A stretch of 64,000 nucleotides of DNA. Origin: Halopenitus malekzadehii (GTDB lineage: Archaea; Halobacteriota; Halobacteria; Halobacteriales; Haloferacaceae). Location: the NCBI RefSeq assembly GCF_900108505.1, contig NZ_FNWU01000002.1:186001-250000 (forward strand). The letters are read 5' to 3'. How positions within the stretch are numbered: position 1 is the first letter of the stretch; each line of letters starts with the position of its first letter. The position numbers and the translations under genes were made by a program. The notes beneath the pieces are model-generated. The model did no database searches. It saw nothing but the letters and a program-made list of their open reading frames with translations, and was not told the origin of the DNA. This document shows positions 23,984 to 42,204 of this stretch, in pieces.

Positions 23984-25972
23984 ATGACGAATTTCGACCT
24001 CGATACCGACATCGGATCCGGCTTCGGCCTCGATGACGGCCTCGACGTCTCGATCGTGGCGTGGGGGATCGCCGGGGTCCCGCTGCTCGTGACCTTCGTC
24101 CAGACGGTCCTGTCGCTGCTCGATCTGACCGCCGAAACGCTCGGTCTCCGTGGCGTGCTCGATCCGATCTACTCGATCGACGTCGTCTTCCAGGCAGCGG
24201 AGGTGTTCAAGGACCAACCATCGCTGGTCGCGGCGCTGTTCGTTCTCATCACGATCGCGTGGATCGTCCAGGGCGCCGCGATGATCGCCCTCGACCATCG
24301 CGACCTCGCGTTCGGCGCCGCCGGGCTCGCGTCGATCCTCTATCTCGTACTGTTCTTCGGCGTCTACTCCCCGCTTTTCGGGTCGGGAATCGCCGCCGGC
24401 CAGCTCGTCGTCTTCTTCGCGGTCCCCGTGCTCGCCACCGCTCTGGTCGTCTCCGCGGCGTGGATACACGACTGGTCCGAGGAAGTCCTCGCGGAGACGT
24501 CCGGCCGGCTCGGCGAGCTGGAGGCACGCATCGGCGACGCCCGGGAGCGCTTCGAGACGGCCTTCGAGGAGCGGGTCGGGTCGCTCGACGACCTCGAGCC
24601 GGTGGCACCCACCGGAGTCGGCGAGGCCGAATCAGCCGCCGACCGCTTCCACGAGCGGTGTGACGATCTCCGCGCGGAGATCGACCGCATCCAGCGGATC
24701 GAGGACCCCGACCGGCGCCGGGAGGAGGTCTCGAACCTCGAGTCGCGTGTCGACTCCCTCGATCCCGAGTCGGCCGTCGATCGGATCGCCGACGACCTTC
24801 GACAGCGTGTCGTCTCCGGCGTTCGAACCGAATTCGGCGACATCACGGTCCGGTCGCGATACGGGGGCGCGTACACCCTCGCGAACCTCCCGTCCCGATA
24901 TCGCGAGGTGTCGTTGCCTCCGGACGGCGCCGCCGTCAGAACGGCGGATATCGATACGGTCCTCCAGGAGCGACTCGAGACCGGCACACCCCTTCCGGAC
25001 GTGGGCGAGGCCATCGGGGCGGCGGCCGACCACCTCGATCGCGTCGAGTCACACCTCACGGACCACGAGGAGCGGGCCGATGCGACGATCGAACGCGTCC
25101 GGTCGCGGCTCGAGACCGTCGACGAGCAGCTCGACCGGCTCCCCGAGTCGGTCCGATCGAGCGCACGCGACGTGTTGGTCGAGAACCGCGAGGAGTCGAT
25201 CACCGGCCGCACCGCGATCGAGCGGACGCTCGGCGACGCGACCGACGCGTTGCACGACTGCGCGTTCGACGAGTGCGAGCGACTGCTGGAGCAGGCGGAC
25301 GCGGAAAGCGAACGACTCGTCGCGGCCGCGGAGTTCTTCCGAGCGCTCGACGGACGGGTCCAGCACGGCGGGTCGAGCGTCGACGTACCCGCGGCGGTGG
25401 ACTCGGCAGCCGTCGAGGCGGTCGCCGAGGCGATGGGGGAGACCCACGATCGGTCGGTCAGCGTGACGGACGGCCGGGTCCGGATCGGCGACGGCGACGA
25501 CGAGACGGACGCCGGGTCCGCGTTCGGACGGGGGAGCACCCGCGATACGACCCGCGACACCGGTGCCGATCGCGAGGAGAGCCGACACGCCGACGGTCCC
25601 GAGTCGACCGTCGACGACGGGATCTCGGGCGGAGTCGGGAGTGACGCGGATGTGGATGCGTCATCCACCAAACGGCCCGAGGAGGTCCTCGACGCCGCGT
25701 TGTACTTCCTGCGGGAGCTCGAGGAACACGCACGCGCGACCGACGGCGATCGGGTGCAGTACCAGATCGACGACCTCCCGACGACGATCGCGGAGCCGGA
25801 CATGCTCGAGAACGTCGAACGGTTCCTGCGCAACCAATCCGACCTGATAACCGAGGTGGAACTGCAGGATCCCGACCCGCCCGCGTTTTTCGAGGTCGTC
25901 GTCGCCGACGAGCATCAGGCGACCGACGCGATCCGGACGGCCCGTGACCGGTACACGGAGCGATACGGGTGA
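23984..25972 (+). CDS. Cluster gene 1: four-TM protein with long cytoplasmic coiled coil
   Basis: 662 residues. Four membrane helices at about 23-47, 80-103, 108-130 and 137-161 are followed by about 500 cytoplasmic residues rich in Glu/Arg heptads (165-430), a disordered acidic stretch (about 500-570) and a compact C-terminal domain (about 572-662, RPEEVLDAALYFLREL onward). No enzyme motif is visible. As first gene of the eleven-gene tubulin-like cluster, and the only polytopic one with a large cytoplasmic arm, it may be the membrane anchor for the filament proteins. That role is inference. No known family recognised. Confidence 0.85.
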   Translation: MTNFDLDTDIGSGFGLDDGLDVSIVAWGIAGVPLLVTFVQTVLSLLDLTAETLGLRGVLDPIYSIDVVFQAAEVFKDQPSLVAALFVLITIAWIVQGAAMIALDHRDLAFGAAGLASILYLVLFFGVYSPLFGSGIAAGQLVVFFAVPVLATALVVSAAWIHDWSEEVLAETSGRLGELEARIGDARERFETAFEERVGSLDDLEPVAPTGVGEAESAADRFHERCDDLRAEIDRIQRIEDPDRRREEVSNLESRVDSLDPESAVDRIADDLRQRVVSGVRTEFGDITVRSRYGGAYTLANLPSRYREVSLPPDGAAVRTADIDTVLQERLETGTPLPDVGEAIGAAADHLDRVESHLTDHEERADATIERVRSRLETVDEQLDRLPESVRSSARDVLVENREESITGRTAIERTLGDATDALHDCAFDECERLLEQADAESERLVAAAEFFRALDGRVQHGGSSVDVPAAVDSAAVEAVAEAMGETHDRSVSVTDGRVRIGDGDDETDAGSAFGRGSTRDTTRDTGADREESRHADGPESTVDDGISGGVGSDADVDASSTKRPEEVLDAALYFLRELEEHARATDGDRVQYQIDDLPTTIAEPDMLENVERFLRNQSDLITEVELQDPDPPAFFEVVVADEHQATDAIRTARDRYTERYG

Positions 25973-26116
25973 TCGATGGGCGGAGCCGGCTGATGGCTGG
26001 GATCGACCGATGGCTGGGGCCAACCGATGGGCGGAGCTCGTCGGTCGCGATGACGTGACTCGACCGTTCCCCTACACTTAAGCTATCGTCCTGACAGGTA
26101 TACGGTATACTCGCTT

Positions 26117-27772
26117 ATGCGCTGTAAGATCTGCTCACTCCCCGACTCACAGTGGGAGGATGACGACCTTGACGACCACCTCCTCGCGGCACACCGGGAC
26201 GAACAGCCTGCGATCCGCGCGGTCTATACCGACCGATACGATCGCCTCTTCGAGGACGGCGACCCGCTCGTCGATCCCGAGGCGGAGGCGGACGCCGACG
26301 ACCCCTCGGACGGAGAACGCCGAGCCGACATCCCCGGCACGTCGTCGGACCCGCCCGCCGAGGACGACCCGGATCCGCCGAGCGACGCCGAGTTCGACGT
26401 CGACTTCGAGGACAGCTACGGGAAGAAGTGGTTCATGATCGGCGTCGGCGGCGCCGGGAACAACATCCTCGATGCGGTCCTGCTCCGACGGGACACGCTG
26501 CGACGAAACAACGAGAACCGCGCGCTCATCTGGGAGGGCGGGCTGGCGGGCTACGGCATCCTCAACACCAACATCGCCGAGCTCGAACAGACCTACTACG
26601 CCCAGGAGGAGCGCGGCTACTCACGCCAGCAGCTGATGATGAACGCGATCATCGGCCAGGGTGCCCACGGCTACCAGGGAATGGGCCGTCGATGGGACCA
26701 CGGCAAGAAGGTGATGGAGCGGGACTTCGAGGACGGCCGGAACCCCTTCCGTGAACGGTGGGATATGGACCCCCAGACGCTCCAGGACGCACAGGCGATC
26801 ATGTTCGTTCACAGCGTCACGAAGGGGACCGGGTGCGGGTCGACGCCGGTGTTGGCCCGGAAGATCCGCGAGGAGGTGCTCAACGACGATTACGTCATCT
26901 CGAAGGCGTTGCTCTCGTCGGTCGTGATCCCCTCCGAGGGCGGGAACAACGGTATGTCCGGCGGGAAGGCGCGCGTGAACGGCGTGGTCGGGCTGGCCAG
27001 AATGTCGGCCGCCGTCGACGCGATCGTCCCCTTCGATAACGAGCGCCTGGAGGCGGCGGGGGCGGACATCACCCCGCGGATCGACGGGCTTCGGGAGTAC
27101 AATCCGCCCCATTACGCCGACCTCAATCGACCGCTCGTGGCGTTCCTGGAGGCGTTCACGATGTCCTCGACGCCGCAATTCGTCAAACAGGACGCCTCGA
27201 TGGCGATCCACGGCGACGTCTTCGACGTCGCCGACAGCTTCCGTCCGGTCGAGGACAAGTATCCGCTCGACCTCGACGCCGACCACCGGCCGGCGGTGAT
27301 CCTTGCTCCGGTACTCGGTCGCGCACGCGGGGAGACGATCAACCGATCGCAACTCGAGACGCTCGTCTCGAACGCCCTGTATCAGAACCGGCTCGCGAAG
27401 TTCGACCCCGAGACGGCCTGGGGCGGCACCTTCCTCCTGTATGGTCCGGAACGGAAGATGGAGGAGGTTTCCCGGCTCGTCTCCGATGGCGTTGCGCGGG
27501 ACATCCTCGCCAGCGAGGACTTCCTCGATGCGGCCAACCAGCCGGGGACCGAGTCGATCGACATCCACGTCGAGCAGCTCGTCACCCCGGACCTCGACGA
27601 CGTCTACCTGTGGGGAACGCTATGGAACCCGCGGATGCCCTCGCTCGAGCGGATGTACGACCACGCAAAGAACATCAAGGAGGGGAACAGCCAGCAGGCG
27701 GAGAACCTTCGTGCGGTCTGGCAGGACGTCGAGCCGCTGTTCTCCTGTCTGGGCCGGGAGAACATGGCCTGA
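26117..27772 (+). CDS. Cluster gene 2: zinc-finger/tubulin-superfamily GTPase-like protein
   Basis: 551 residues. The N terminus is a Cys2-His2 finger (CKIC at 3-6, His20 and His25 in DHLLAAH). An acidic linker to about residue 100 follows, then a FtsZ/tubulin-type core. Seen motifs are the first glycine loop MIGVGGAGNNI (107-117), the tubulin signature variant TKGTGCGS (235-242) and PFDNERLEA, equivalent to the FtsZ base-contacting strand. The catalytic T7 region reads HYADLNR, where FtsZ has DFADVR. It resembles the Tubulin_2-type divergent family. GTP binding is likely; hydrolysis is uncertain because the first T7 Asp is His. It is followed after five bases by the coiled-coil gene. Confidence 0.85.
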   Translation: MRCKICSLPDSQWEDDDLDDHLLAAHRDEQPAIRAVYTDRYDRLFEDGDPLVDPEAEADADDPSDGERRADIPGTSSDPPAEDDPDPPSDAEFDVDFEDSYGKKWFMIGVGGAGNNILDAVLLRRDTLRRNNENRALIWEGGLAGYGILNTNIAELEQTYYAQEERGYSRQQLMMNAIIGQGAHGYQGMGRRWDHGKKVMERDFEDGRNPFRERWDMDPQTLQDAQAIMFVHSVTKGTGCGSTPVLARKIREEVLNDDYVISKALLSSVVIPSEGGNNGMSGGKARVNGVVGLARMSAAVDAIVPFDNERLEAAGADITPRIDGLREYNPPHYADLNRPLVAFLEAFTMSSTPQFVKQDASMAIHGDVFDVADSFRPVEDKYPLDLDADHRPAVILAPVLGRARGETINRSQLETLVSNALYQNRLAKFDPETAWGGTFLLYGPERKMEEVSRLVSDGVARDILASEDFLDAANQPGTESIDIHVEQLVTPDLDDVYLWGTLWNPRMPSLERMYDHAKNIKEGNSQQAENLRAVWQDVEPLFSCLGRENMA

Positions 27773-27777
27773 GAACG

Positions 27778-29379
27778 ATGCCCGTGAATACCCTACCGAC
27801 GGTCTTTTTGGGCCTGTTCGACCGGTCGAGCGACGACGGCGACGACATCGACCGGATCGCGAGCCGGCTCGGCGCCTCGGCATCGGCGGCCGACGTCGAA
27901 CGGCGGCTCGACACGTTGGGGCGGTCGATGGATCGGCTCGTCTCCGCCGCCGACCTGCCCGAGTCGGCCGGACCGTCGCCGGATTCCGACCCGGTCGAGA
28001 AGGCCGAATCGCTACGCCGGGCGGTTGAAACCGACCGCATCCGGATCGAGGGGTCCGCCCCCGGCCGCGGGAACGATGGACGCAGCGAACGCGCCGGCAC
28101 CGGCGGACGCGGCAGTACCGGCGGTCGCGATCGGGCGGCGGCCGAGGCCGAAACGGTTCGGCAGGCCGCGCGGAGCGTTTCCCGGGAGGTTCGCCCCAGC
28201 GCATCGGTGTCGAGCCGGCTGCTCGATCAGCTGTCCGGCTCGCGACGGGCCACCGAGGAGCAGGTCGAGGAGACCCTCCGTACGGCCCTCGAGCACCTGG
28301 ACGCCCACGAGCGGGCGATGGACGTCGTCGACCGGACGGACGGGGTCGAGGACGTCGCCGAACTCGCCGAACGACGCCGGGACGCGTCGAGGCGGAACCG
28401 ACGGGAGGAGAACGGCCGCGACCGGCTCCAGGAGGCGGTCACGGAGCTGCTTGCGGCGGTCGACGTCAAGGTGGACGACGACGAGACGCTCGACCGCCGC
28501 GTTCGGGAGGCGACCCGAAAGGTGCGCGAGCGGGAGTCGACGCCGAGTCGAGGGTCGACGCCGAGTCGGGGGGAGGGACCGGGGTGGGAAGAGGGACCGA
28601 GTCGGGGGACGGGACCGATCGAGGGAGACGGACGGCGGGACGACCGATCCCGCGGTGGGACGGCTTTGGGCTCGACGGACGACTCGGAGAGCGTTCGAAC
28701 CGCGGTCAGACGCGCTCGGGAGTCGACGGCGCCGCGGTCACGGGAGGCGCGCACCCTCTTCGAGGCGCTCGAGGCGGGGCGCGTCGAGCCGACGACCGAC
28801 GCGCTCGAGACCGCCGCGACGCGGCTCGACGAGCTGGCGACCGCACGAAGCCTGCTCGACAGCGTCGACCCCGGAGACGTCTCCACGCTTGCGGGGACGA
28901 TCGACGACCGGCTGGCCGATCACGAGGGGCCGATCGTCGACCGGCTGGCCGACCGCGTCGAGGAGCTGGACTCACGGATCGACCGGATCGACGAGACCAA
29001 CCGCGTCCTCCTGGTCGCGGCTCACGAGGAGTTGACCTTCTACGACCGACAGCTCCTGGGCGCACTGGAGGCGACGACCGGCTCCGGCGCGGAAGCGGAT
29101 ACGGAGGCGGTCCACGATCGTGTGGCCTCGCTTCGCGAGCGTCGCGAGACGATCGAGACGGCGTACGTCGAGGAACGATCGGATCACAACCACAGCATCC
29201 CGCTGTACTTCCTCTCGATCGCTGACACGTATCTCGAGGAGGCGACCGAACGACTGAACGCCGGAGAGCCGGCCCGTGCCGACGGAATCTGTACGGTGAC
29301 GGAGGCCGTCATCGACCACATCGAGGGGCTCTACGAGCAGAACCAGTACAGCGTGATGTTGCGGAGTCTCCGTGGGTAG
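27778..29379 (+). CDS. Cluster gene 3: soluble coiled-coil protein
   Basis: 533 residues with no membrane segment or signal peptide. Heptad-like charged helices at about 15-65, 115-250 and 300-400 flank a disordered Ser/Arg/Gly-rich linker (about 250-300) with short SRG repeats. The C-terminal 100 residues are a helical domain (YVEERSDHNHSIPLYFLSIA and on). It starts five bases after gene 2 and is probably translated with it, so it is a likely binding partner of the zinc-finger tubulin. No family recognised. Confidence 0.8.
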   Translation: MPVNTLPTVFLGLFDRSSDDGDDIDRIASRLGASASAADVERRLDTLGRSMDRLVSAADLPESAGPSPDSDPVEKAESLRRAVETDRIRIEGSAPGRGNDGRSERAGTGGRGSTGGRDRAAAEAETVRQAARSVSREVRPSASVSSRLLDQLSGSRRATEEQVEETLRTALEHLDAHERAMDVVDRTDGVEDVAELAERRRDASRRNRREENGRDRLQEAVTELLAAVDVKVDDDETLDRRVREATRKVRERESTPSRGSTPSRGEGPGWEEGPSRGTGPIEGDGRRDDRSRGGTALGSTDDSESVRTAVRRARESTAPRSREARTLFEALEAGRVEPTTDALETAATRLDELATARSLLDSVDPGDVSTLAGTIDDRLADHEGPIVDRLADRVEELDSRIDRIDETNRVLLVAAHEELTFYDRQLLGALEATTGSGAEADTEAVHDRVASLRERRETIETAYVEERSDHNHSIPLYFLSIADTYLEEATERLNAGEPARADGICTVTEAVIDHIEGLYEQNQYSVMLRSLRG

Positions 29380-29502
29380 GCGTCGGCGCTCCGACGTTCA
29401 CGGCGGGCCGACCGGTGGGACGCTGGGCCGGGATCGAAACGGACGGACGCTGGAGGGATCCGTCACCCCGACAGAACCTGTCACCGCTCGGTCACTCGGA
29501 AG

Positions 29503-29508
29503 ATATAT
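29503..29508 (+). promoter_or_regulatory. Internal promoter candidate before cluster gene 4
   Basis: ATATAT, in GAAGATATATGTG, lies about 40 bases before the ATG at 29545, inside the largest gap of the cluster (165 bases). It would give a short leader of about 13 bases. The second half of the cluster could have its own transcript. Confidence 0.45.
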
Positions 29509-29544
29509 GTGGGAGTTGCCAGACGTATTATCTGACTTTCGGGT

Positions 29545-30726
29545 ATGGTGTATCTATTCGTGGGTACGGGACAGGCGGGCAGCGCTCTGGTGGACGAGGT
29601 GTTCGCCCACGAGGGCATCCGCATCGAAGCGGCACCGCTGGCGTTGAACTCGACGGTGCGCGATCTCGAGAACCTCTCGCACATCGATGACGACGAGTGG
29701 ATCGGCGTCTCGGAGACCGACGGGCTCGTTCCCGGAACCCAGGCGGGGTTCGAGGAGGTCGTTACCGGTGGGTTCGGGCGGCGACCGCGACGCGCGAACG
29801 ACGTGATGGAACGGCACGGCCAGCAGCTCGTTCCGATGCTCGAGAACCGGTTCGGCGAGGACGGGAACGTTCCCTTCGCGTTCGTCTTCCTCGGCCTCGG
29901 CGGCGGAACTGGGTGTGGGATCGCCCCACACGTCGTGGACGCGATCCGCCGATACGCGGCCGGCGACGTCAAGGTGATCGCCGTCGCCGTCCTGCCGAAC
30001 ACACAGGAGTCGGTTCACGTCGACGCCTCCGAGGACGACGAGACGGTGAGCGCCGGCCGACAGGCCTCGAACGCGGTCTACGGGCTCGATCGACTCGAGG
30101 AGACCGTCGACGGGATCATGTTGGTCGACAACCAACGGCTTGGCTATGAGGACGCCGCCGAGGGACGCTTCGCCGAGTACAACGAGTACGTCGCCGGGTC
30201 GGTCGTCGACCTGGTCTCGGGGCCGGTCGTTGAGCGGATCGACCCCGGGGAGTACGACGAGATCGACGCGCCGATCATCGACATCCAGGACATCGTCACC
30301 TCGTTGTCGTTCGGTGCCGGCCCCGACGGTGAACCGGGGTACGGGACGATCGGCCGGTCGATCGAGATGACGAAATCGCTGCCGGGATACTTCCTCCCGC
30401 TCATCGGCGACCAACAGGTCGACGCCGCCGAACTCGCGTATCTCGCACAGGCCAAACAGAGCGTCGACGACGTCTCCTTCGGGGACGCGAAGAAGGCGAT
30501 CGGCCACGTCCGCGCGCCGCGGCAGTACATCGCCGACCCCGAGTACCAGATCGAGATCTCGGAGGTCCGCCGCCGGCTGAACGAGCACTGTTCGGAGGTG
30601 AACCTCGGAATGGTGCCGACGAGCCGCAACCTCGTCTCGTGTACGACGGTGTACACGTTCGAGCGAACCGACCTCAACCGAATACGGGAGATCGAGGAGA
30701 TCGCCGAAACGTATGAAGCGGCCTGA
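29545..30726 (+). CDS. Cluster gene 4: tubulin-superfamily GTPase-like protein
   Basis: 393 residues, entirely a FtsZ/tubulin-like fold. The N terminus reads MVYLFVGTGQAGSALVDEVF (nucleotide-binding glycine turn). The tubulin signature GGGTGCG spans 119-125 and is followed by APHVVDAI. A strand GIMLVDNQRL is equivalent to FtsZ base contacts. The T7 catalytic loop appears as IIDIQDIVTS, with Asp246 and Asp249 at the positions of the two FtsZ Asp residues. It may therefore be an active, polymerising GTPase. It lacks the FtsZ C-terminal conserved peptide and is far from CetZ. It overlaps the next gene by 14 bases. Confidence 0.88.
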   Translation: MVYLFVGTGQAGSALVDEVFAHEGIRIEAAPLALNSTVRDLENLSHIDDDEWIGVSETDGLVPGTQAGFEEVVTGGFGRRPRRANDVMERHGQQLVPMLENRFGEDGNVPFAFVFLGLGGGTGCGIAPHVVDAIRRYAAGDVKVIAVAVLPNTQESVHVDASEDDETVSAGRQASNAVYGLDRLEETVDGIMLVDNQRLGYEDAAEGRFAEYNEYVAGSVVDLVSGPVVERIDPGEYDEIDAPIIDIQDIVTSLSFGAGPDGEPGYGTIGRSIEMTKSLPGYFLPLIGDQQVDAAELAYLAQAKQSVDDVSFGDAKKAIGHVRAPRQYIADPEYQIEISEVRRRLNEHCSEVNLGMVPTSRNLVSCTTVYTFERTDLNRIREIEEIAETYEAA

Positions 30727-30970
30727 CGCTCCCGCCCATCGGATCGCCATCGGCGTCGCCCTCGTCAGCGCCGCCGTCGTCGCGATCCTGCTGTTCGTTC
30801 CGATCACGGCCGGGAGTGACCCGGCCTCACGACTGGCGGCGGCGAGGGCTGCCGTCGCGCTGACGGAGCAGTTGCCGCTACTGGTCGGCGTCGGCGCCGG
30901 ATTCGGACTCGCCGCCGGGTCCGTGATCGGCGCGCTTCGTGCCTACGATCAGGAGGTGACGGATCGATGA
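30713..30970 (+). CDS. Cluster gene 5: two-TM small membrane protein
   Basis: 85 residues with two hydrophobic helices (about 10-31 and 54-77) joined by a short loop (TAGSDPASRLAAARAAVALT). It has a basic start (MKRPDAPAHR) and an acidic C-terminal tail (RAYDQEVTDR). It begins inside the end of gene 4 and overlaps gene 6 by four bases (ATGA), so it is clearly part of the operon. Function unknown; size and position suggest an accessory subunit of the membrane complex. Confidence 0.75.
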   Translation: MKRPDAPAHRIAIGVALVSAAVVAILLFVPITAGSDPASRLAAARAAVALTEQLPLLVGVGAGFGLAAGSVIGALRAYDQEVTDR

Positions 30971-32052
30971 CGCCGGGACGATCGCGGGTCCTCACCGGCC
31001 TCGTCGCCTGCTGGCTCGTCGTGGCGGTGGCCGTCGGCGGCGTCGCCTCGGGTGCCGCAGCCGCCGGCTACCAGGACGCGAACGCGGCGTGTTCGAGCGA
31101 GGCGGCAAGCAGTCAGTTCTCGCTGCTGCTCCTGCTCGAGAACGGGGACGTGTTCGGTCCGGGGACGGAGGGAGCCGTCGAACTCTATCCGGACACGGAG
31201 GCGCGACTCGTCTTCTGCGACGAGACCACGGCCCAACCACCCGACAGCGCCTGGAATCTCGCCGACACGGACTTCCTGGAGCGGGGTGACGGCGGGGACA
31301 GCTACTACACCGTTCGGACGGCCGACGTCGACGTCGAGACCGACCTTACGACTGCGATCGCGGGGAACAACCCGGAAGCGGCCGGCCCGACGCTACGGAT
31401 CGTGACCGCGAGCGAGTCGACGCTGTCGTACCTCGAGGACCCGGTGACGATCCGGTACGCCGGCGGGACGGGTGATTCGTCCGGTCCGGTGGCGGATGAG
31501 CTGGCCGCGTACAACCGGTCGCTGACGGTGGTCGCGGAGAACCGATCCACCCTCGAACGCGCGGCGAACTCCTCCGCGCCGCTGAGCGCCGACGTCACTG
31601 CCACGGAGCTCGCCACCACGCGGAGCCGGCTCAACGAGACCGGGGAAACGCTCTCGGTCGCGCTCTTCGCCTCCGCTCGAAACGGAACGCCCGGAGCGGC
31701 TGACGGATACCTGGCCCACCAGGACCACCACGACCGGGCGCTTGTGGCGTTCGAGGAGTCGGTGGATGCGTATCTGGCTGCTGCCGCCGCCGAAGCGCGG
31801 ACGGCCCGACTGACCGCCATCGGGGTCCTCCTCGGTTCGTTCGTGGTCTTCGGCGGCATCGGCGGCGGCATCGGAAGCTGGATAGCCAGCCGCGACCTCC
31901 AGTCGATCCGCCGGGAACGTCGCCGCCGCAGCAACGTGGGATACGGCTGGGGCGACCTGAAGAAGGCGTTCGCGATCGCCGTCCTCGGCGTGATCGCGGG
32001 ACTCCTCTCGTCGATCCTCCTCGGATCGACGCTCCTCGAGGTGCTCTTATGA
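30967..32052 (+). CDS. Cluster gene 6: secreted-domain membrane protein with two C-terminal TM helices
   Basis: 361 residues. Signal peptide at about 1-33 (basic start, hydrophobic core ACWLVVAVAVGGVASGAAAA). An exterior domain (about 34-280) contains three Cys (two near the start, one in LVFCDE), Asn-x-Ser/Thr sites and a helical end. Two membrane helices follow (about 283-306 and 335-358), separated by a strongly basic loop (RRERRRRSN), which fits a cytoplasmic loop by the positive-inside rule. It overlaps genes 5 and 7 by four bases each. No family recognised. Confidence 0.8.
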   Translation: MTPGRSRVLTGLVACWLVVAVAVGGVASGAAAAGYQDANAACSSEAASSQFSLLLLLENGDVFGPGTEGAVELYPDTEARLVFCDETTAQPPDSAWNLADTDFLERGDGGDSYYTVRTADVDVETDLTTAIAGNNPEAAGPTLRIVTASESTLSYLEDPVTIRYAGGTGDSSGPVADELAAYNRSLTVVAENRSTLERAANSSAPLSADVTATELATTRSRLNETGETLSVALFASARNGTPGAADGYLAHQDHHDRALVAFEESVDAYLAAAAAEARTARLTAIGVLLGSFVVFGGIGGGIGSWIASRDLQSIRRERRRRSNVGYGWGDLKKAFAIAVLGVIAGLLSSILLGSTLLEVLL

Positions 32053-34127: not shown

Positions 34128-34141
34128 CTCCACCATCGAAC

Positions 34142-35371
34142 ATGTCCCACACCCAACGAACCGACACGTACACGCGCTGGGCAGTCATCGCATCCGGCGA
34201 GGGAGGCGGTCGCATCGCCTCACAGTTCTTCAGCCGCCGGGAGAACCCCGGCGTCGAGGACCGGATCCTCGTCATGAACACGAACCGGACGGACATCCGG
34301 AACACGATCGACCGCCTCGAGAACACCCTCGGCGACTCGGATTCGCTCGGCGACCACGCGATGGTCTTCGGCAGCGACGAAGGGGCCGGCAACGTCTTCG
34401 CCGACGGCGAGCGGCTCGCCGAGGAGAGCATCGACGAGATCATTCGCTCGATCCGCGGCGTGGTGCCGACCGCGGACGCGTTCATGCATATGGCGACGCT
34501 CGGCGGCGGCACCGGAAACGGGTCGATCCCCTACACGATCCGAACGTTCAAAAACGGGAGCGACAGCGATGCCTACGAGCCCTGGATGGAGGACGTCATC
34601 CACGCGGCGATCGGCGTGTGGCCCTACGAGGACGAACCGCCCCAACAACAGTTCAACGCGGTCTGTGGGCTCTCCCGCCTCCTGCGAATGCCGGACGGGA
34701 CACAGAACGCGGACATGGTCCTCCTCGGCGCGAACACCCACATCGCCCAGATGGGCAACGGCGACGATGATCCACACGGCCATCCGAACGACATCGTCAA
34801 CGAGCGGCTGATCGAGGCGTTCGACCTGATGATCAGCGCGGGCCGGGAGACCCAGGGCGTGATCGACGTCCAGGACTACGTGAGCGTTCCCTCACAGATC
34901 GGCGCGTACCACTTCACGCCGGCCATCGCGACGGACATGAACGCGAACGTCTACGACCTCGAGTACATGTTCGAGAAGGCCGCGGAGAACGCCTTCGTCC
35001 CGATGGACGTCTCGACGACGAAGACGGCGTTTGCGATCGTCCGGGCGCCCCGTGGGCTGGCCAGCGACGAGGAGTTCAGCGAGAACGCGGTCAACTCCGC
35101 CTTCGAGTCCTGGAAGCGGGATCGGGGGATCGACGCGCCGGGGATGTCGACGGTCTCCATCACCGACGGCGCCCGCGACAAGGTCGACGTCTTGTTGCTG
35201 CTGGGCGGCTTCGATCTCGAGCCGCTGTTGGACCGCTCCTGGGACGCCTTCGAGACGCACAAGACGCGGCTCGAACGCGGCCGCCGGCTCGGCAACGCGT
35301 CGATCGCCGCCGACCAGATGACCCGGATCGAAGAGAACCTCGACGAGTACATCAGGTTCCTGGAGGAGTGA
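34142..35371 (+). CDS. Cluster gene 8: tubulin-superfamily GTPase-like protein
   Basis: 409 residues. The N-terminal nucleotide turn is WAVIASGEGGGRIASQFF. The tubulin signature GGGTGNG lies at 121-127, followed by SIPYTIRTF. The segment VIDVQDYV places Asp242 and Asp245 where FtsZ has its T7 catalytic pair. MVLLGANTHIAQ corresponds to the base-contact strand with its conserved Asn. The C-terminal half holds an activation-domain-like sheet and a helical tail. It differs enough from gene 4 to be a separate paralogue, not a recent duplicate. Its TGA stop is followed at once by the ATG of gene 9. Confidence 0.87.
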   Translation: MSHTQRTDTYTRWAVIASGEGGGRIASQFFSRRENPGVEDRILVMNTNRTDIRNTIDRLENTLGDSDSLGDHAMVFGSDEGAGNVFADGERLAEESIDEIIRSIRGVVPTADAFMHMATLGGGTGNGSIPYTIRTFKNGSDSDAYEPWMEDVIHAAIGVWPYEDEPPQQQFNAVCGLSRLLRMPDGTQNADMVLLGANTHIAQMGNGDDDPHGHPNDIVNERLIEAFDLMISAGRETQGVIDVQDYVSVPSQIGAYHFTPAIATDMNANVYDLEYMFEKAAENAFVPMDVSTTKTAFAIVRAPRGLASDEEFSENAVNSAFESWKRDRGIDAPGMSTVSITDGARDKVDVLLLLGGFDLEPLLDRSWDAFETHKTRLERGRRLGNASIAADQMTRIEENLDEYIRFLEE

Positions 35372-38300
35372 ATGAGCCGGACCCGGACACGCATCGACGC
35401 GGTCGCGTTCACTCTCCTGCTGCTGGTCGCGCTCTCGGTCGCGCCGGTCGCGGGGGCCGCCCTCGATGCGGGCGGTAGCGACGCCGCCGGCGGCGCGGAT
35501 GGCGGATCCGCCGTCGACGCACGCGGGAGTATGGCCGTCGACGATCGAACGCCGACGACGGCGACGGCGATCGATCTCGGTGCCGCCGGATCGGCGGCAC
35601 GGAACGTCGAGACGAACAGCACGGCACGGAACTCGAACCTCTCGTTCACACTCGATGGACCGACGCTCGAGATCGAGGTCTCCACCGACGCCTTCGAGAG
35701 CGAGAACGAGACCGGGATCGACGTCGTCGTCGCGGATGAGGACCCCTACGAGAACCTCGACGGGTCCGAGTCGAACGGCACCTACATCTACGAGGTCGAT
35801 CTCACCCAAGGGTCCTTCGACGACCTCTCGGACGCGACGGTGACGGTCTCGCGGACCAGTGACGGGGAATCACTCGGCGATGGAACGGGCACATTGTGGT
35901 ACGTCGACCTCACGGGCGACGGCGCCACTTTCGACGGCCAGAACCAGCTCACCGTGCCGATCGAGCAGTCGATCGGGCTGCAGGGGAACCTGCGGTTCAC
36001 GCTCTCGGCAGGCGGTGAGGAGGCCGATGTCTACGCCGAACGGATCGATCCAGCAAGTGATGCTGACCCCGATCGGCTCCGGTTCGTCCGCAGCTCCGGG
36101 TTCGAGACCCTGATCGGAACGGGCGAGGACATCGAGATCGGGGCCGCGGACCACGAAGATGCCCCGCGTGTCGGATCTCCGACGACGATCGCGGTGGACG
36201 ACATCACGAACAATCCGCAGGTACGTCTCGACGCCGGTGACGTGGTCGTCGCCCATCCGCAGATCGCCAACGGGAGCGAGTACGTGGTCACGATCGAGGG
36301 AACGATCGGTGACCGGTCCCCGATCACGACGCGAAGCATTACCGCCGAGGCCGGCGGTGAACTCCGGTTTTCCTCCGAGGGCCTGGTGCTCGGCGCGCCC
36401 GGATCCGAAGTGGAAGTCGAGATACAGGGAGCCGGCGGAACGGTCGGATCGGGGACGACCACGATCTCGGGGTCGGTCCTCGAGGCGAGAGTGACGAACG
36501 CCTCCACCGTCGTCGTCGATGGGCTAAGCGACACGGTCGCGCTCGACACGAATGACGACGAGAACGCCACGCCGACCGTCGACGTCTACGTCTCCTGGGA
36601 GAACCGGTCGGGCGAGCCGCGCCTCCTCGAGGACGTTCCGGTCGACGTCGACAACGAAACGCTCGTCGTCCCCGAGACCGGCTACCGGCTCACCGGAACG
36701 GGACATACCCTGTTGATCGTCACTGAGGAGGACGAGACCGCCGTCGCCTCGATCGTCGACGGATCAGCGGACGAGGACACCGGCGTCGAACCCCTGACCG
36801 GCGGCATCGGCGGCGCGGGCGGGATCGTGGGGATCGTCGGTACCGTCATCGGATCGACGATCGGGCAGGCCATTCTCGGGTTCCTCCTCGTGGTCGTCAT
36901 CGGCGGGATCGGGGTCTTCAAACTGACCTCCTCGGGCGGATCGGACGGTCCCGGTGGATCCGGCGGCCGCGGTCAATCGGGAGCCGGCGGCGGAATGGGC
37001 ATCCAGACCGTCGACGTCGATCTCGTCGACGCGAGCGGCGACCCCGTCGACACGACGCGAACCGTCGTCTTCGAGCCGACCGGCGGGATGGCGAACACGA
37101 TGAACCCGCAACAGAAACGGGTTGCCGGGAGCGGGGAGGTGGACGTTCCGGAGCAACAGTACTACGTGCGCGTCGAGGGGAGCGACACGGGTACGACGCT
37201 CCCGCGCGGCCAGGAGTCGATCCGGGTCCAGGTGCCGCCCCAGCAGGGGACGGTCACCGTGCATAGCGCCCGCGACGAGGACGAACGCATCGCGGGCGCG
37301 GAGATCCGGTGCCGGGCGCCGGAGGACGTCATCACCACCGACGTGGACGGCGACGACCTGCGGACCGACGGCGACGGGACGACGACCCTCGAGCTGCCGC
37401 CGTCGGTCGACCCTGAGTCCGTGACGCTGGAGGTCGAACACGATCGCTACGAGTCAACCGAGTCGGGACTCCAGCAGTCGATCGGGTTGGAGCCGAAGAC
37501 GGGGACGATCGTCGTCGAGACGGGCATCGACGGGCAGTCGGCGGGCAACGTTCCCGTGTCGGTTCAACCGGTCGGGGAGTTCCCGCGCGCCAACGACGGC
37601 GGCACGGAGGCGCGAAGCGACGACGATGGGTCGGTGACGATCGACGACCTCGTGATCGGGGAGTACCGGGTCACGGCGTCGTTCGACTCGGACGCGATCG
37701 TCGACGTGGACGAGGAGACCGTCGAGGTGGTGGCGGACGAGCAGCGCCGCGTCTCGATCGACGGCGCGTTCGACTTCGATCTCGCGCCGTATCAAGCGCG
37801 GATCGACGAGCTCAACGAGGAGATCGCCGACCTCACCCGGTCGAACCGCGACGGCGCGATCCCGTATTACTACGGAAGCGTGCTCACCGCGGCGCTGGAT
37901 CTCCTCGCGACGTTCCCCGACCAAGGACTGCTGTTCGTCGAACACGGCGTCGATCCCGACGAGGTGACCGAGGCCGTCCTTGCGGCGGTCGCGGACGCGA
38001 TCGAGTACACCCGCGACGCGATGACGACGAAACAGAACGTCGACCTGTTCGGCGCGTGTTCCTCCCTGCGCAACGAGCGCGTCCGCTGGGAGGGCGATCC
38101 CGCGGTCCTGACGACGTCCGGAGACGATCGGCGATCCGGGGGATCCGGGCAGCGGTCCTCGTCCGGGCGCCGGGGTGGAGGCCGGTCCGACGATCGACGA
38201 GGGCGTTCCGGCGGGGGAACGGGCGCCTCCCGCGGGAGCGACCAGCGGACGGCGATGCTCGAGGAGCTGGTCACGGTAGTGGCGGCCGATCGGGCCGACC

Positions 38301-38551
38301 ACCGTGGGCGGACGGCCGACCGGCTCGAGGAGACCGAGGCGGTCCTGAGCGAGCGGCGCGGGGAGGTCTCGACGGTCTCGCCGGTCCGAGAGCAGTACGA
38401 CCGGATCAAGGACCATCTGTCGAGTACGCCCGGCGACACCCGGACCGAAACGCGGGTCCAGTTCGTGGTGTCGGCGTGGATGCTCGACGCCGTGCAACGC
38501 GTGTTCGATCACCCCGAACTCGTGGACCGACTGGAGGAGACGGTGTTCTAA
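35372..38551 (+). CDS. Cluster gene 9: large single-pass envelope protein with beta domains on both sides of the membrane
   Basis: 1059 residues. Signal peptide at 1-29. The exterior region (about 30-475) is acidic, beta-rich and Asn-x-Thr-rich (Ig-like or CARDB-like). It is followed by a Gly-rich hydrophobic segment (about 478-515) ending IGGIGVFKLTSS. The second half starts with a Gly/Ser linker, then has two or three carboxypeptidase-regulatory/CNA-B-like beta units (about 545-800), a helical domain (about 805-905), an Arg/Gly/Ser disordered stretch and a final helical bundle. By simple topology those beta units face the cytoplasm, which is unusual. It begins immediately after the tubulin gene. 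Confidence 0.82.
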   Translation: MSRTRTRIDAVAFTLLLLVALSVAPVAGAALDAGGSDAAGGADGGSAVDARGSMAVDDRTPTTATAIDLGAAGSAARNVETNSTARNSNLSFTLDGPTLEIEVSTDAFESENETGIDVVVADEDPYENLDGSESNGTYIYEVDLTQGSFDDLSDATVTVSRTSDGESLGDGTGTLWYVDLTGDGATFDGQNQLTVPIEQSIGLQGNLRFTLSAGGEEADVYAERIDPASDADPDRLRFVRSSGFETLIGTGEDIEIGAADHEDAPRVGSPTTIAVDDITNNPQVRLDAGDVVVAHPQIANGSEYVVTIEGTIGDRSPITTRSITAEAGGELRFSSEGLVLGAPGSEVEVEIQGAGGTVGSGTTTISGSVLEARVTNASTVVVDGLSDTVALDTNDDENATPTVDVYVSWENRSGEPRLLEDVPVDVDNETLVVPETGYRLTGTGHTLLIVTEEDETAVASIVDGSADEDTGVEPLTGGIGGAGGIVGIVGTVIGSTIGQAILGFLLVVVIGGIGVFKLTSSGGSDGPGGSGGRGQSGAGGGMGIQTVDVDLVDASGDPVDTTRTVVFEPTGGMANTMNPQQKRVAGSGEVDVPEQQYYVRVEGSDTGTTLPRGQESIRVQVPPQQGTVTVHSARDEDERIAGAEIRCRAPEDVITTDVDGDDLRTDGDGTTTLELPPSVDPESVTLEVEHDRYESTESGLQQSIGLEPKTGTIVVETGIDGQSAGNVPVSVQPVGEFPRANDGGTEARSDDDGSVTIDDLVIGEYRVTASFDSDAIVDVDEETVEVVADEQRRVSIDGAFDFDLAPYQARIDELNEEIADLTRSNRDGAIPYYYGSVLTAALDLLATFPDQGLLFVEHGVDPDEVTEAVLAAVADAIEYTRDAMTTKQNVDLFGACSSLRNERVRWEGDPAVLTTSGDDRRSGGSGQRSSSGRRGGGRSDDRRGRSGGGTGASRGSDQRTAMLEELVTVVAADRADHRGRTADRLEETEAVLSERRGEVSTVSPVREQYDRIKDHLSSTPGDTRTETRVQFVVSAWMLDAVQRVFDHPELVDRLEETVF

Positions 38552-38552
38552 T

Positions 38553-39536
38553 ATGGTGACGCGACGATCCCTCATCGTTATCGGCGTATCGCTGCTTGCG
38601 TTGTCCTCGCTCGCGGTCACGGGGGCCTCGGCGGACCACGGGTCCGCAGGCGAGTATCTCACGCAACTGAACGACCTCCGGAACGCGGAGGCACTGACCG
38701 AATACACCGAACTCGACCTGGCACGGAGCCAGGCGGTCGTCGAGTTACAGACGGCCGCGGAGTTCGATTCGTCGATGGATACGAGGATGCATCACCTTCT
38801 GAACGCGATCCTCGCGTTCCAAGAGGCGTACGCGGACGCCGATGAGAACCCGATCGAGAGCGTCGACCACGCCACGGAAGCGCAGTCACACCTGAACCAG
38901 CTCTTGGACGCCGGTGGGGAGGAGTACGCCGGTCTGGGGACGGTCGCGCTCGAACGGTTCTACGCGACCCAGGGAGAAACTCTCTACGAGCAGGCGCAGG
39001 CGGCCGAATCGACCCCACGGCGGCTCGAGCTCCTCAACGCGTCGGTTCGCGCCTTCGACGGCGCCGGGGAGTCGGAACGGTTCGCCGACGCCCAGCTGGA
39101 ACGCGACCAGCTCCTCGCGGAGTACGAGAGCGACATGAACCGTCACGACGAGCTCGTCGGCGACGCGAACACCTACCTCGAGGGCTGTGGCGCGGCCTGT
39201 GAGGGCCCGACCGACTACGTCCTCTCCGGTCCCTTCGGCGCGATCTCCGAGTACACGGCGGCGATGAGCGCCCACGGAGACGCCACCGAGGCCGCCGCGA
39301 TCGCCGATGAACACGGACTCGACGGGGACACGAGCGAGGCCGCGGCGATCGAGAGTCGGGCCTTCACCGCGATGGTGTCCACGGGCGTCGCAAGCGCCAT
39401 CCTCGCGTTCCTGTATGCCGGCGTCTTCATCGCCGTCGCCGCCGGCGTGATCTGGCGGCTATCGATCTGGGCACGCGACCTCCACACGAGCGCCCTCGAC
39501 GATATCGTGACCCCCCTGGAGGTGGACGATGCCTGA
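38553..39536 (+). CDS. Cluster gene 10: secreted helical-domain protein with C-terminal TM
   Basis: 327 residues. Signal peptide at 1-27 (VTRRSLIVIGVSLLALSSLA core). A helical, TPR-like exterior region (about 30-255) has repeating Glu/Ala/Leu helices and a Cys pair in EGCGAACEGP that may form a disulphide. A long hydrophobic segment (about 270-305) is followed by a short cytoplasmic tail. It starts one base after gene 9 and overlaps gene 11 by eight bases. No family recognised; a spacer or receptor on the outside of the complex is one possibility. Confidence 0.8.
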   Translation: MVTRRSLIVIGVSLLALSSLAVTGASADHGSAGEYLTQLNDLRNAEALTEYTELDLARSQAVVELQTAAEFDSSMDTRMHHLLNAILAFQEAYADADENPIESVDHATEAQSHLNQLLDAGGEEYAGLGTVALERFYATQGETLYEQAQAAESTPRRLELLNASVRAFDGAGESERFADAQLERDQLLAEYESDMNRHDELVGDANTYLEGCGAACEGPTDYVLSGPFGAISEYTAAMSAHGDATEAAAIADEHGLDGDTSEAAAIESRAFTAMVSTGVASAILAFLYAGVFIAVAAGVIWRLSIWARDLHTSALDDIVTPLEVDDA

Positions 39537-42204
39537 GGCGATCGGGGTGCGACGGCTCGCGGTGATGGCCGTTGCCCTGTCGGTGCTCGTCGGGCTCTCG
39601 ATGCCCGTCGGGGCGGCCTCCGGCAGCGTCACGATCGACGCGGCGATCGACAGCGGGTCGGAATCGACGACGATGCAGTTCACGTTCACGGCCCCACAGA
39701 ACGGGACGATCACGAGTGCGGATGAGCCGTCGACCGGCGACGTCTCATTCACGTTCGACGATCGGCTCCCGATGACCGTGCAGGCGGGCCAGACCTACCG
39801 CGTCTCCTACAGAGCGACTGCCGACCAGAGCGCGTCCGAGGGGACGTACAGCGAATCCGCCAGCCTATACTACGACGACGGCAGCACCGCGACGACGGAG
39901 TCCCTAGATCTAACCGTTGACGAGGCGGAACCTCGGTTCGGGAGCGTTCAGGTCGACGATGCGCCCGTCGAGGTCGTCTTCACGAGTAGCGGTTCACAGA
40001 CCCAGAGCGTGTCGCTTGACGTCCCGAACACCGGGAACGGCGCGATGGTCCCGGAGGACGTCGCGTTCGACACGCCACAAGGGATCTCCGTGAGCGCCGA
40101 CCGAATGCCGTCGCGGATCGACGGCAACCGGGAGGGAACGATCGACCTCCAGGTGACCGTCGATCGGGATGCGCCGACGGGGACGACACGGGTGTCCGGC
40201 ACGGTGCAGGACAACCTCGGCACGTCCGGCGGCGACTTCAGCTTCGACGTCGACGTGAGCACGCCGCCGGTCGCGGGCGTCGCGGGCAGCACGGTCGACG
40301 TCGGCGACGTGCTGGTGGGGTCGAGTTCGACGGCGGAGTTCCGGGTCACCGAACAGGGCGGGTTCACCGGCCTCGACGGCCTCGAGGTGTCGGGCGGGTC
40401 GGATGCGGACGGATCCATCGCCTTCGACACCAGCGGCTTCTCGACGAGCGCCGGCGGGTCGGACACGGCCGCGGTTCGGATCACCGCGGATTCGGACGCC
40501 CGACAACACGAGACGCTCCGGTTCACGACGGACATCTCGGGGACGGATCCCGACAGCCCGGCCACGTCCGTCACCTTCGAGGCACGGGTGATCTATCCGG
40601 CGACGCTCGCGGACGTGCGCGTTCCGATGCGCACCTTCGAGTTCGACGAGCCGCGCACGGTCTCCACCCAGCAGACCGACGCGACCGTCGAGTTCGAGAA
40701 CGGCGGCGACCTCGAGATGGACGTCCAGTCGGTTGACGCGTCGGTGAGCGACTCGCGGATCGAGGCGAGCGTGACCGACGTCCCGGGCGCCGTTCCGGGC
40801 GGCGGAACCGGGGAGGCGACGGTGCAACTGGCCGCCGATCCGGACACGCCGGAGGGGACCTACACCCTCCAGGTGCGGGTCGATGCCGGCGACGCGGGCA
40901 CCGAGACGATCACGCGCGAGATCGAGGTCCAACACGGTACCGACCTCGCGGTCGGCGAGTCGAACGTCGCCTTCGGCGAGGTGACGATCACCGAACAGCG
41001 GACGCGGACGATCGACGTCGGCGAGGCGCTCGGGTACAACGACCTCTCGAACGTCGAACTCGAGCGGGTCTCCGGGCCCGACCGATGGCTGACGGTGAAC
41101 CAGGAGCCGCCCAGCGACATCGACGCCGGCGAGACGGGACCGCTCGTCTATAGCCTCCAGTTCGACACCGATGCCGAGGCGTATCAGGAGTACACCTGGC
41201 GCTATCGCGTCTCCGCGGACGGCATCGAGGCGGAGACCATCGAGGTGACGGCGGTCGCCAGACTTCTCTCGCCGGAGGCGATCATCGGCGACCTCGGGGA
41301 GCAGGCGAGCGCTGGCGGGTGGCAGGCGACGACCGCGGAGTCGACGACCGGGGCACTGCGGTCGATGGAGACCCGTCTCCAGGAAGGCGAATCCTTCTCG
41401 AACGGGGACATCCAGCGGACGCTGACGGTCGGGCAAAGCACCGTCGTGCTGATCGACTCCGTCGAATCGGCCCAACAGTTCCAGTCGGAGGGCAACTACG
41501 AGGCCGCCCAGCGTGAGGTGATAAGCGCGATCATCGCCCGGAACATGGTCGCCCAGTACGCCTCGAACATCGAGGACCAGGAGACGTCGGACGCGCTCGA
41601 GACGTCGGTGTCGGCCACCGAGGACCCGGTCGCGTCGATCGTCGACGAACAGCGGTCCCACTACGAATCAGTGCTCGAGGACGGGGAGGCAACCGCGCTC
41701 GAACGACACTTCGCGAGCGACAACCTGGCCGAGCTGGCCAGACAGCGCGGCAACGGCGACCAGGCAGACGAGTACGAATCGACCGCCGAATCGAGCTTCG
41801 CGGAGTATCAGCAGCAGGTTTCGACCGGCGTCGACCATCGAACGACGGCGATGAACGACCACCGGGCCTTCGCCGACAACGCCACGCTGACGGTTCTGGG
41901 CCAGCCGCTTGTGTTGAACCCGGCACGGATCGACGAGGTCACCGCGCACGCGGCGAGCGTTTCCGGAGACCTCGAAGCGGCCGAATCCGCGTTCCGCGAG
42001 GCCGGCGCGACCGGCGAGGCGGAGGCGGTCGCGGGGACGCGCAACGAAATCGGGACCGAGTTGGCGATCCTCCGGTACTCGTTGTACGGCGCGACCCTGC
42101 TGTTCGCGGTGGTGTTCCTCCTGTTCGTGGTTCGGGAGGTTCTCAACGCGCGGACCTTCGTTCAGGAGTCCCAGGAGGCGACGGCGGGCGACTTCCTGCT
42201 GTAG
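39529..42204 (+). CDS. Cluster gene 11: large exterior Ig-like repeat protein with C-terminal TM
   Basis: 891 residues. Signal peptide at about 1-30. Four or five Ig/CARDB-like beta domains (about 32-580) are recognisable by repeated strand patterns such as VDVGDVLVGSSSTAEFRV and VAFGEVTITEQRTRTIDV. A helical region (about 585-835) follows, then one membrane helix (about 848-872) and a short cytoplasmic tail. The layout resembles an S-layer-contacting stalk. It is the last gene of the eleven; the next gene starts 90 bases on and looks unrelated. Confidence 0.82.
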   Translation: MPEAIGVRRLAVMAVALSVLVGLSMPVGAASGSVTIDAAIDSGSESTTMQFTFTAPQNGTITSADEPSTGDVSFTFDDRLPMTVQAGQTYRVSYRATADQSASEGTYSESASLYYDDGSTATTESLDLTVDEAEPRFGSVQVDDAPVEVVFTSSGSQTQSVSLDVPNTGNGAMVPEDVAFDTPQGISVSADRMPSRIDGNREGTIDLQVTVDRDAPTGTTRVSGTVQDNLGTSGGDFSFDVDVSTPPVAGVAGSTVDVGDVLVGSSSTAEFRVTEQGGFTGLDGLEVSGGSDADGSIAFDTSGFSTSAGGSDTAAVRITADSDARQHETLRFTTDISGTDPDSPATSVTFEARVIYPATLADVRVPMRTFEFDEPRTVSTQQTDATVEFENGGDLEMDVQSVDASVSDSRIEASVTDVPGAVPGGGTGEATVQLAADPDTPEGTYTLQVRVDAGDAGTETITREIEVQHGTDLAVGESNVAFGEVTITEQRTRTIDVGEALGYNDLSNVELERVSGPDRWLTVNQEPPSDIDAGETGPLVYSLQFDTDAEAYQEYTWRYRVSADGIEAETIEVTAVARLLSPEAIIGDLGEQASAGGWQATTAESTTGALRSMETRLQEGESFSNGDIQRTLTVGQSTVVLIDSVESAQQFQSEGNYEAAQREVISAIIARNMVAQYASNIEDQETSDALETSVSATEDPVASIVDEQRSHYESVLEDGEATALERHFASDNLAELARQRGNGDQADEYESTAESSFAEYQQQVSTGVDHRTTAMNDHRAFADNATLTVLGQPLVLNPARIDEVTAHAASVSGDLEAAESAFREAGATGEAEAVAGTRNEIGTELAILRYSLYGATLLFAVVFLLFVVREVLNARTFVQESQEATAGDFLL

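Follow-up and report, generated by a model that had tools for sequence, protein, structure and literature searches.

A two-operon tubulin-superfamily gene set of haloarchaea that may couple cytoplasmic filaments to the S-layer

Eleven genes of Halopenitus malekzadehii, three of which encode the divergent tubulin-superfamily proteins TubA, TubB and TubC, are on balance probably the larger half of a horizontally transferred archaeal cytoskeletal machine that is divided between two operons and couples tubulin filaments to the S-layer. Sequence comparison supports the eleven genes as a single system with conserved order and co-inheritance. The original prediction had taken these eleven genes for the whole machine; the single system stands, and its extent was drawn too small, as the haloarchaeal system appears to comprise at least 16 genes in two operons. 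The set provides candidate parts, from filament to surface, for how archaea with an S-layer as their only wall shape their cells. It bears on whether any cytoskeleton grips the S-layer, and suggests that a single prokaryotic machine may draw on several tubulin families of ancient origin. The set is also present on plasmid pHS2 of a laboratory organism, Halobacterium salinarum R1, so the question is directly testable.

The window is the whole stretch of DNA analysed, 64,000 nucleotides (bases 186001-250000 of contig C26 of the Halopenitus genome, G000). In the ORF reading of the window the eleven genes all lie on the plus strand between 23984 and 42204, exactly where they had been placed (Table 1), and the eight spacings first reported (5, -14, -4, -4, 14, 0, 1 and -8 bases) are all exact. 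Gaps of 144 bases before TubA and 165 bases before TubB mean that up to three promoters are possible in the run. The eight non-tubulin genes match no Pfam or NCBIfam family at cut-off, and the three tubulins match none besides Tubulin (PF00091); the same search of the eleven genes bears out the earlier statement that no VWA or OmpA domain is recognisable among the partners. Seven of the eleven genes encode membrane-bound partners, with topology predicted by hydropathy. By the same measure g3 has no transmembrane (TM) segment, and all 26 g7 orthologues have two. Among three Halopenitus genomes all eleven genes are under purifying selection, with dN/dS of 0.04-0.12 for the tubulins and a maximum of 0.43 for g9. 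This selection, together with an order kept across families at 30-60% identity, indicates that the set is more than a chance grouping. The left flank of the operon, IscA and a zinc-ribbon protein, is conserved in relatives that lack the operon. The nearest relative of TubC is in Halopenitus persicus (96%).

Table 1. Genes of the two operons and the neighbouring FtsZl1 subsystems; coordinates of g1 to g11 are counted from the start of the window.
Feature	Coordinates	Strand	Description
g1	23984..25972	+	662 aa; 4 predicted TM segments, then long cytoplasmic coiled coil; haloarchaeal accessory gene
TubA	26117..27772	+	tubulin-superfamily; N-terminal C2H2-like zinc knuckle; haloarchaeal accessory gene
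g3	27778..29379	+	533 aa; soluble, charged, coiled-coil-rich; haloarchaeal accessory gene
TubB	29545..30726	+	tubulin-superfamily, GGGTGCG; core gene
g5	30713..30970	+	85 aa, two TM
g6	30967..32052	+	signal peptide, outside domain, two TM near C-terminus
g7	32049..34127	+	TM hairpin at N-terminus, then long cytoplasmic coiled coil and prealbumin-like domain; core gene, lies between TubB and TubC
TubC	34142..35371	+	tubulin-superfamily, GGGTGNG; core gene
g9	35372..38551	+	signal peptide, outside domain beta-rich and variable, TM, Ig-like and helical domains in cytoplasm; core gene
g10	38553..39536	+	helical outside domain after signal peptide, single TM segment, short tail in cytoplasm; core gene
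g11	39529..42204	+	signal peptide, stalk of Ig-like (ASH/NEW3-like) type, helical domain, single TM segment, tail in cytoplasm with GDFL end; core gene
g12			beta-propeller with CARDB-like similarity; partner operon
g13			AAA ATPase, weak CDC48 domain 2 similarity; partner operon
g16-g15-g14-g13(AAA)-g12	C26:139880-147329 (L262:1880-9329)		Halopenitus partner operon; outside window, about 63 kb before eleven-gene operon
FtsZl1 subsystem beside operon	L239:1847-12075, L240:831-12461, L252:9190-18950		three TubA-less haloarchaeal genomes

H. malekzadehii is one of 27 genomes with a TubC orthologue among the 292 of Halobacteria. Whether orthologous neighbourhoods keep the genes together was a test set beforehand, and they do: the order g1-TubA-g3-TubB-g7-TubC-g9-g10-g11 is kept in 24 of the 26 other haloarchaeal loci, with synteny also seen in H. 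salinarum R1, where TubC is OE_RS12040, g7 OE_RS12045, TubB OE_RS12060 and g11 OE_RS12025. The remaining two loci miss only g1, TubA and g3. In named relatives g6 was recovered by profile. Pairwise distances among the module genes correlate with one another (r 0.68-0.92, mean 0.78), whereas their correlation with FtsZ distances is just 0.19-0.44, indicating horizontal movement in which the genes stay together and are partly uncoupled from their hosts. Plasmid copies, on pHS2 of H. salinarum R1, in Natrinema and on three Halobaculum plasmids, fit this movement. Viral contigs were also searched and yielded zero relatives of the system. The system is dispensable, since it is missing from about 90% of the haloarchaea sampled, which counts against the machine.

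The second operon is the main extension of the set. In H. salinarum R1, g12, g13 and g14-g16 lie convergent to g11. Six TubA-bearing loci were followed beyond g11, and all six have g12, g13, g15 and g16 at the same place; conservation of g14 is poor. All 25 TubA-bearing haloarchaeal genomes contain g16, which is found in none of 35 others (three TubA-less haloarchaea with TubC, 27 TubC-negative haloarchaea and five other archaea). In Halopenitus the two operons are not linked, so hitch-hiking cannot account for the co-occurrence of g16 and TubA there. Genes g12-g16 thus appear to belong to the same system as the eleven. A signal peptide was not detected in g12, so its beta-propeller would work inside the cell, whereas the beta-propeller of hydrothermarchaeal g9 is outside. 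In the Halopenitus genome, a tandem pair of further tubulin-superfamily genes (C26:135876-137585; PF00091 63 and 104 bits) is situated some 2.3 kb away from this operon.

Haloarchaea that lack TubA have a different neighbour. An FtsZl1 gene adjoins the operon in all three TubC-bearing, TubA-less haloarchaea (G042, Halobellus salinus G048 and Halobellus sp. Atlit-31R), and TubA was not found elsewhere in these three genomes. The neighbouring FtsZl1 scores 36 bits against PF13809 in the two tested (cut-off 27). Its own neighbours include multi-TM partners, one with a P-loop-like GKT/GKS motif. At six TubA-bearing loci, no FtsZl1 turned up in the roughly 20 kb that follow downstream. With FtsZl1 beside the operon where TubA and g16 are missing, a single core seems to accept either of two regulatory modules, the TubA set apparently being swapped for FtsZl1; the cases are few, three in all, and two of them come from one genus.

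The system is not confined to haloarchaea: the core is present in Methanoperedens and Hydrothermarchaeota, and named relatives reach ANME-2, Altarchaeum and Micrarchaeota as well. In Methanoperedens the order is <g11 <g10 TubB> g5> g6> g7> TubC> g9>, where g5 (L109:6199-6561) and g6 are assigned by position and topology only. In Hydrothermarchaeota it is g9> <g11 <g10 TubB> g7> TubC>. ANME-2 keeps <g11 <g10 TubB> with TubC apart, and in both ANME-2 and Altarchaeum TubC is away from its partners on the contigs at hand. Of 16 genomes from outside the haloarchaea that have TubC and were tested, 15 contain a strong TubB match, and g7 is matched in Methanoperedens (E 1e-83) and in Hydrothermarchaeota (E 1e-32). 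The Methanoperedens, Hydrothermarchaeota and ANME-2 layouts point to an old core of TubB, g7, TubC, g9, g10 and g11. TubA, g1, g3 and g13-g16 appear to be a haloarchaeal addition to it. One Methanoperedens genome has an ORF resembling a mobile element, as judged by eye, between g7 and TubC (L083:9056-9913). Micrarchaeota TubB bears a C-terminal Ig-like extension (L121:14815-16434), and genes that by eye resemble those for the ATPase and membrane platform of a type IV pilus (L121:1528-4836) lie about 5 kb from Micrarchaeota TubC.

The tubulin-type signatures on which the earlier reading was built (TKGTGCGS, GGGTGCG and GGGTGNG) are real, and all three proteins exceed the PF00091 (Tubulin) cut-off of 33 bits, TubA with 47, TubB with 45 and TubC with 43. 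At E 0.01 the same profile matches every family member (TubC 73/73, TubB 19/19, TubA 17/17). The T4 glycine loops are invariant in the family alignments, the TubA version being TKGTGCG. Alignment also shows the T7 acidic residues D246 and D249 to be invariant in TubB (19/19), and the corresponding TubC pair, D242 and D245, to be near-invariant (72/73 and 73/73). TubA lacks the T7 acidic pair and may therefore be unable to complete a GTPase site. Near its N-terminus most TubA relatives have a CxxC...HxxxxH pattern. In profile comparison TubA matches TubB at 98% probability and TubC at 97%.

The original prediction depended on a tubulin fold in the three proteins. This fold is upheld for TubC by structure prediction and for TubA and TubB by profile evidence. 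The AlphaFold2 model of TubC, from 73 sequences, has a pLDDT of 89.3 and a pTM of 0.91, and predicts a full two-domain tubulin/CetZ fold. Among solved structures, Foldseek matches the model best to CetZ2 (E 4.2e-18, TMt 0.80), CetZ1 (E 1e-17) and archaeal FtsZ (E between 4e-18 and 1e-17). Tubulins cover more of the query, with a TMq of about 0.75 versus 0.67-0.69 for CetZ2, archaeal FtsZ and CetZ1. This higher coverage perhaps comes from two long C-terminal helices after the second domain of the model, which we read as resembling tubulin H11-H12. The TubA model, from 17 sequences, is poor (pLDDT 50) with a confident stretch over the first 45 residues, and was used only for the zinc-knuckle N-terminus and the order of elements. 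Each of TubA, TubC and TubB (the last with one Altarchaeum paralogue) forms its own 100% clade in the tree, distinct from FtsZ, CetZ and FtsZl1, though the tree does not resolve the deep order. The separate clades indicate that the three are not recent tandem copies. Iterated TubA, TubB and TubC profiles cross-recruit one another, and for this reason the 'TubA-like' genes of Hydrothermarchaeota are treated as CetZ-like, as the tree places them.

Evidence for a link to the cell surface comes from g9, g10 and g11. The cytoplasmic half of g9 (Ig-like and helical domains) is constant, while its outside half changes between lineages, from plain beta-rich in haloarchaea to a beta-propeller in Hydrothermarchaeota. 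One Methanoperedens g9 paralogue (L109:15040-18189, in tandem with two others) consists of two PF07752 S-layer domains (E 1.6e-106), a TM segment and g9-type cytoplasmic domains; this fusion is found in one of the 34 genomes of its family. The C-terminal tail of g11, inside the cell, ends in GDFL, GDVVLG or GDDFL according to lineage. The motif occurs in 43 of 60 sequences (53 of 60 if GEFL is allowed), compared to 1 of 184 control C-termini. Outside haloarchaea the tails of g10 resemble those of g11 (GNELV, GDEVI, GNDLL). In our reading the g10 and g11 tails are putative docking peptides that bind the same partner in the cytoplasm, for which the tubulins are the simplest candidate. Taken together, the S-layer fusion and the conserved tails support filaments beneath the membrane that grip the S-layer. 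The idea of one machine joining filaments to exterior Ig-like stalks, itself an inference of the original prediction, is strengthened by the S-layer fusion in a relative.

From these parts we infer polymerisation, a mixed filament, the docking contacts, a role for the ATPase and envelope shaping as the outcome. TubB and TubC, plus TubA in haloarchaea, would bind GTP and make a mixed filament under the membrane. Docking of the filament to the membrane would fall to g7, through its TM hairpin and coiled coil, together with g1, the g9 cytoplasmic domains and the g10 and g11 tails. The S-layer side would be gripped by the outside domains of g9 and g11, which are Ig-like stalks, beta-propeller or S-layer domains depending on the lineage. 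GTP-driven assembly could then deform or stiffen the envelope locally, and the AAA ATPase g13 of the partner operon could recycle the assembly. More tentatively, the system might represent a new class of cytoskeleton, in which two or three ancient and mutually distant tubulin families form a heterotypic filament. A dedicated transmembrane complex would carry force from this filament to the archaeal S-layer, and either of two exchangeable regulatory modules, TubA-AAA or FtsZl1-GTPase, would attach to the one conserved core.

Other readings of the locus are less probable. The three proteins could be diverged CetZ tubulins of a shape or motility cytoskeleton, whose clients, for instance motility or surface proteins, would be the partners. 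In Haloferax the CetZs work at the cell envelope (PMC9856176, PMC11621097), and CetZ1 and CetZ2 (4b45, 4b46, 3zid) are the best PDB matches of TubC and TubB in profile and fold. However, each Tub family is its own 100% clade outside CetZ, which with its hydrothermarchaeal relatives splits off at 92% support in a tree that samples only two own-genome CetZs and three relatives. Moreover, further CetZ-type tubulin-superfamily genes lie elsewhere in the Halopenitus genome, and no archaellum or chemotaxis genes adjoin the set within the window. We know of no CetZ counterpart with two to three tubulins and an envelope-spanning set, and consider this reading unlikely. Membership of the Makarova-Koonin FtsZl1 membrane-remodelling system (Tubulin_2, PF13809; PMC2875224) is largely refuted and very improbable. 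There is a general resemblance, as FtsZl1, too, is a tubulin-superfamily protein that in archaea is accompanied by several membrane partners; the PF13809 match of TubB lies below threshold (22.3 bits, cut-off 27), and FtsZl1 genes lie beside the operon in the TubA-less genomes. Yet all three window proteins fall short of the Tubulin_2 cut-off; TubA gives no match, and members of the TubC family never match. A Pfam search of the eleven genes likewise shows none of the partners described for FtsZl1 (VWA, protein kinase, OmpA, diverged P-loop GTPase). Genuine FtsZl1 proteins are about 1157 aa, score above the PF13809 cut-off, form their own clade, belong to a different tubulin family and have a long coiled coil that TubA, TubB and TubC lack. 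The separation from the Makarova-Koonin families proposed at the outset is borne out by PF13809 and by the partner families. FtsZ1 and FtsZ2 have the superfamily and the T4/T7 chemistry in common with the present proteins, but the FtsZ equivalog TIGR00065 (cut-off 295.2) gives only 27.9, 39.1 and 18.7 bits for the three window tubulins. By these comparisons the three appear to be neither FtsZ, CetZ nor FtsZl1.

A contact, mating, adhesion or surface-appendage apparatus, in which filaments position the exterior Ig-like stalks for cell-cell contact or fusion, would be consistent with the stalks themselves, with plasmid carriage, horizontal spread and patchy occurrence, and with the type IV pilus-like genes near the Micrarchaeota locus. 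That neighbourhood is a single case, however; the set contains no pilin, relaxase or conjugation coupling protein, and all five plasmids that carry it are typed as non-mobilizable. We regard such an apparatus as rather improbable. A role in plasmid or chromosome segregation, like that of TubZ/RepX, is more doubtful still and has very little probability. Large plasmids of Halobacterium, Natrinema and Halobaculum carry the set and RepX and TubZ are among the distant PDB matches, but the set is not plasmid-only, the Halopenitus copy sits among housekeeping genes, the membrane-bound partners do not suit such a role, and no DNA-binding adaptor family (Pfam) occurs within the eleven genes. That the genes are unrelated and neighbours by accident is refuted by their order across families, their co-variation and their co-occurrence with the unlinked partner operon, with nothing found in favour. 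An anti-phage defence system was also considered and rejected; PADLOC gave just a weak LeoA match (20 bits) in the coiled-coil region of g1.

The original prediction allowed that the machine may be an undescribed archaeal system. No paper describing it was found in a literature search of open-access journal papers, although one of its tubulin groups has probably been glimpsed before. Santana-Molina et al. 2023 (PMC9871819) report, in the main text, 'Halo.Tub' and Altiarchaeota 'CetZ-like' groups of tubulin-superfamily paralogues in Halobacterota and Altiarchaeota, and describe 'Halo.Tub' as having several quasi-tandem copies with coiled-coil neighbours of unknown function. 'Halo.Tub' probably includes TubB and/or TubC. 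That paper's main text describes neither a system nor a partner set, and mentions no partner operon, link to the S-layer or co-occurrence. In H. salinarum R1, genes of the set are annotated 'cell division protein FtsZ', which is probably misleading; Halopenitus has FtsZ genes of its own. Hydrothermarchaeota carry another cluster with three CetZ-like tubulin-superfamily genes (L164:8642-13779 and L163), separate from the system described here.
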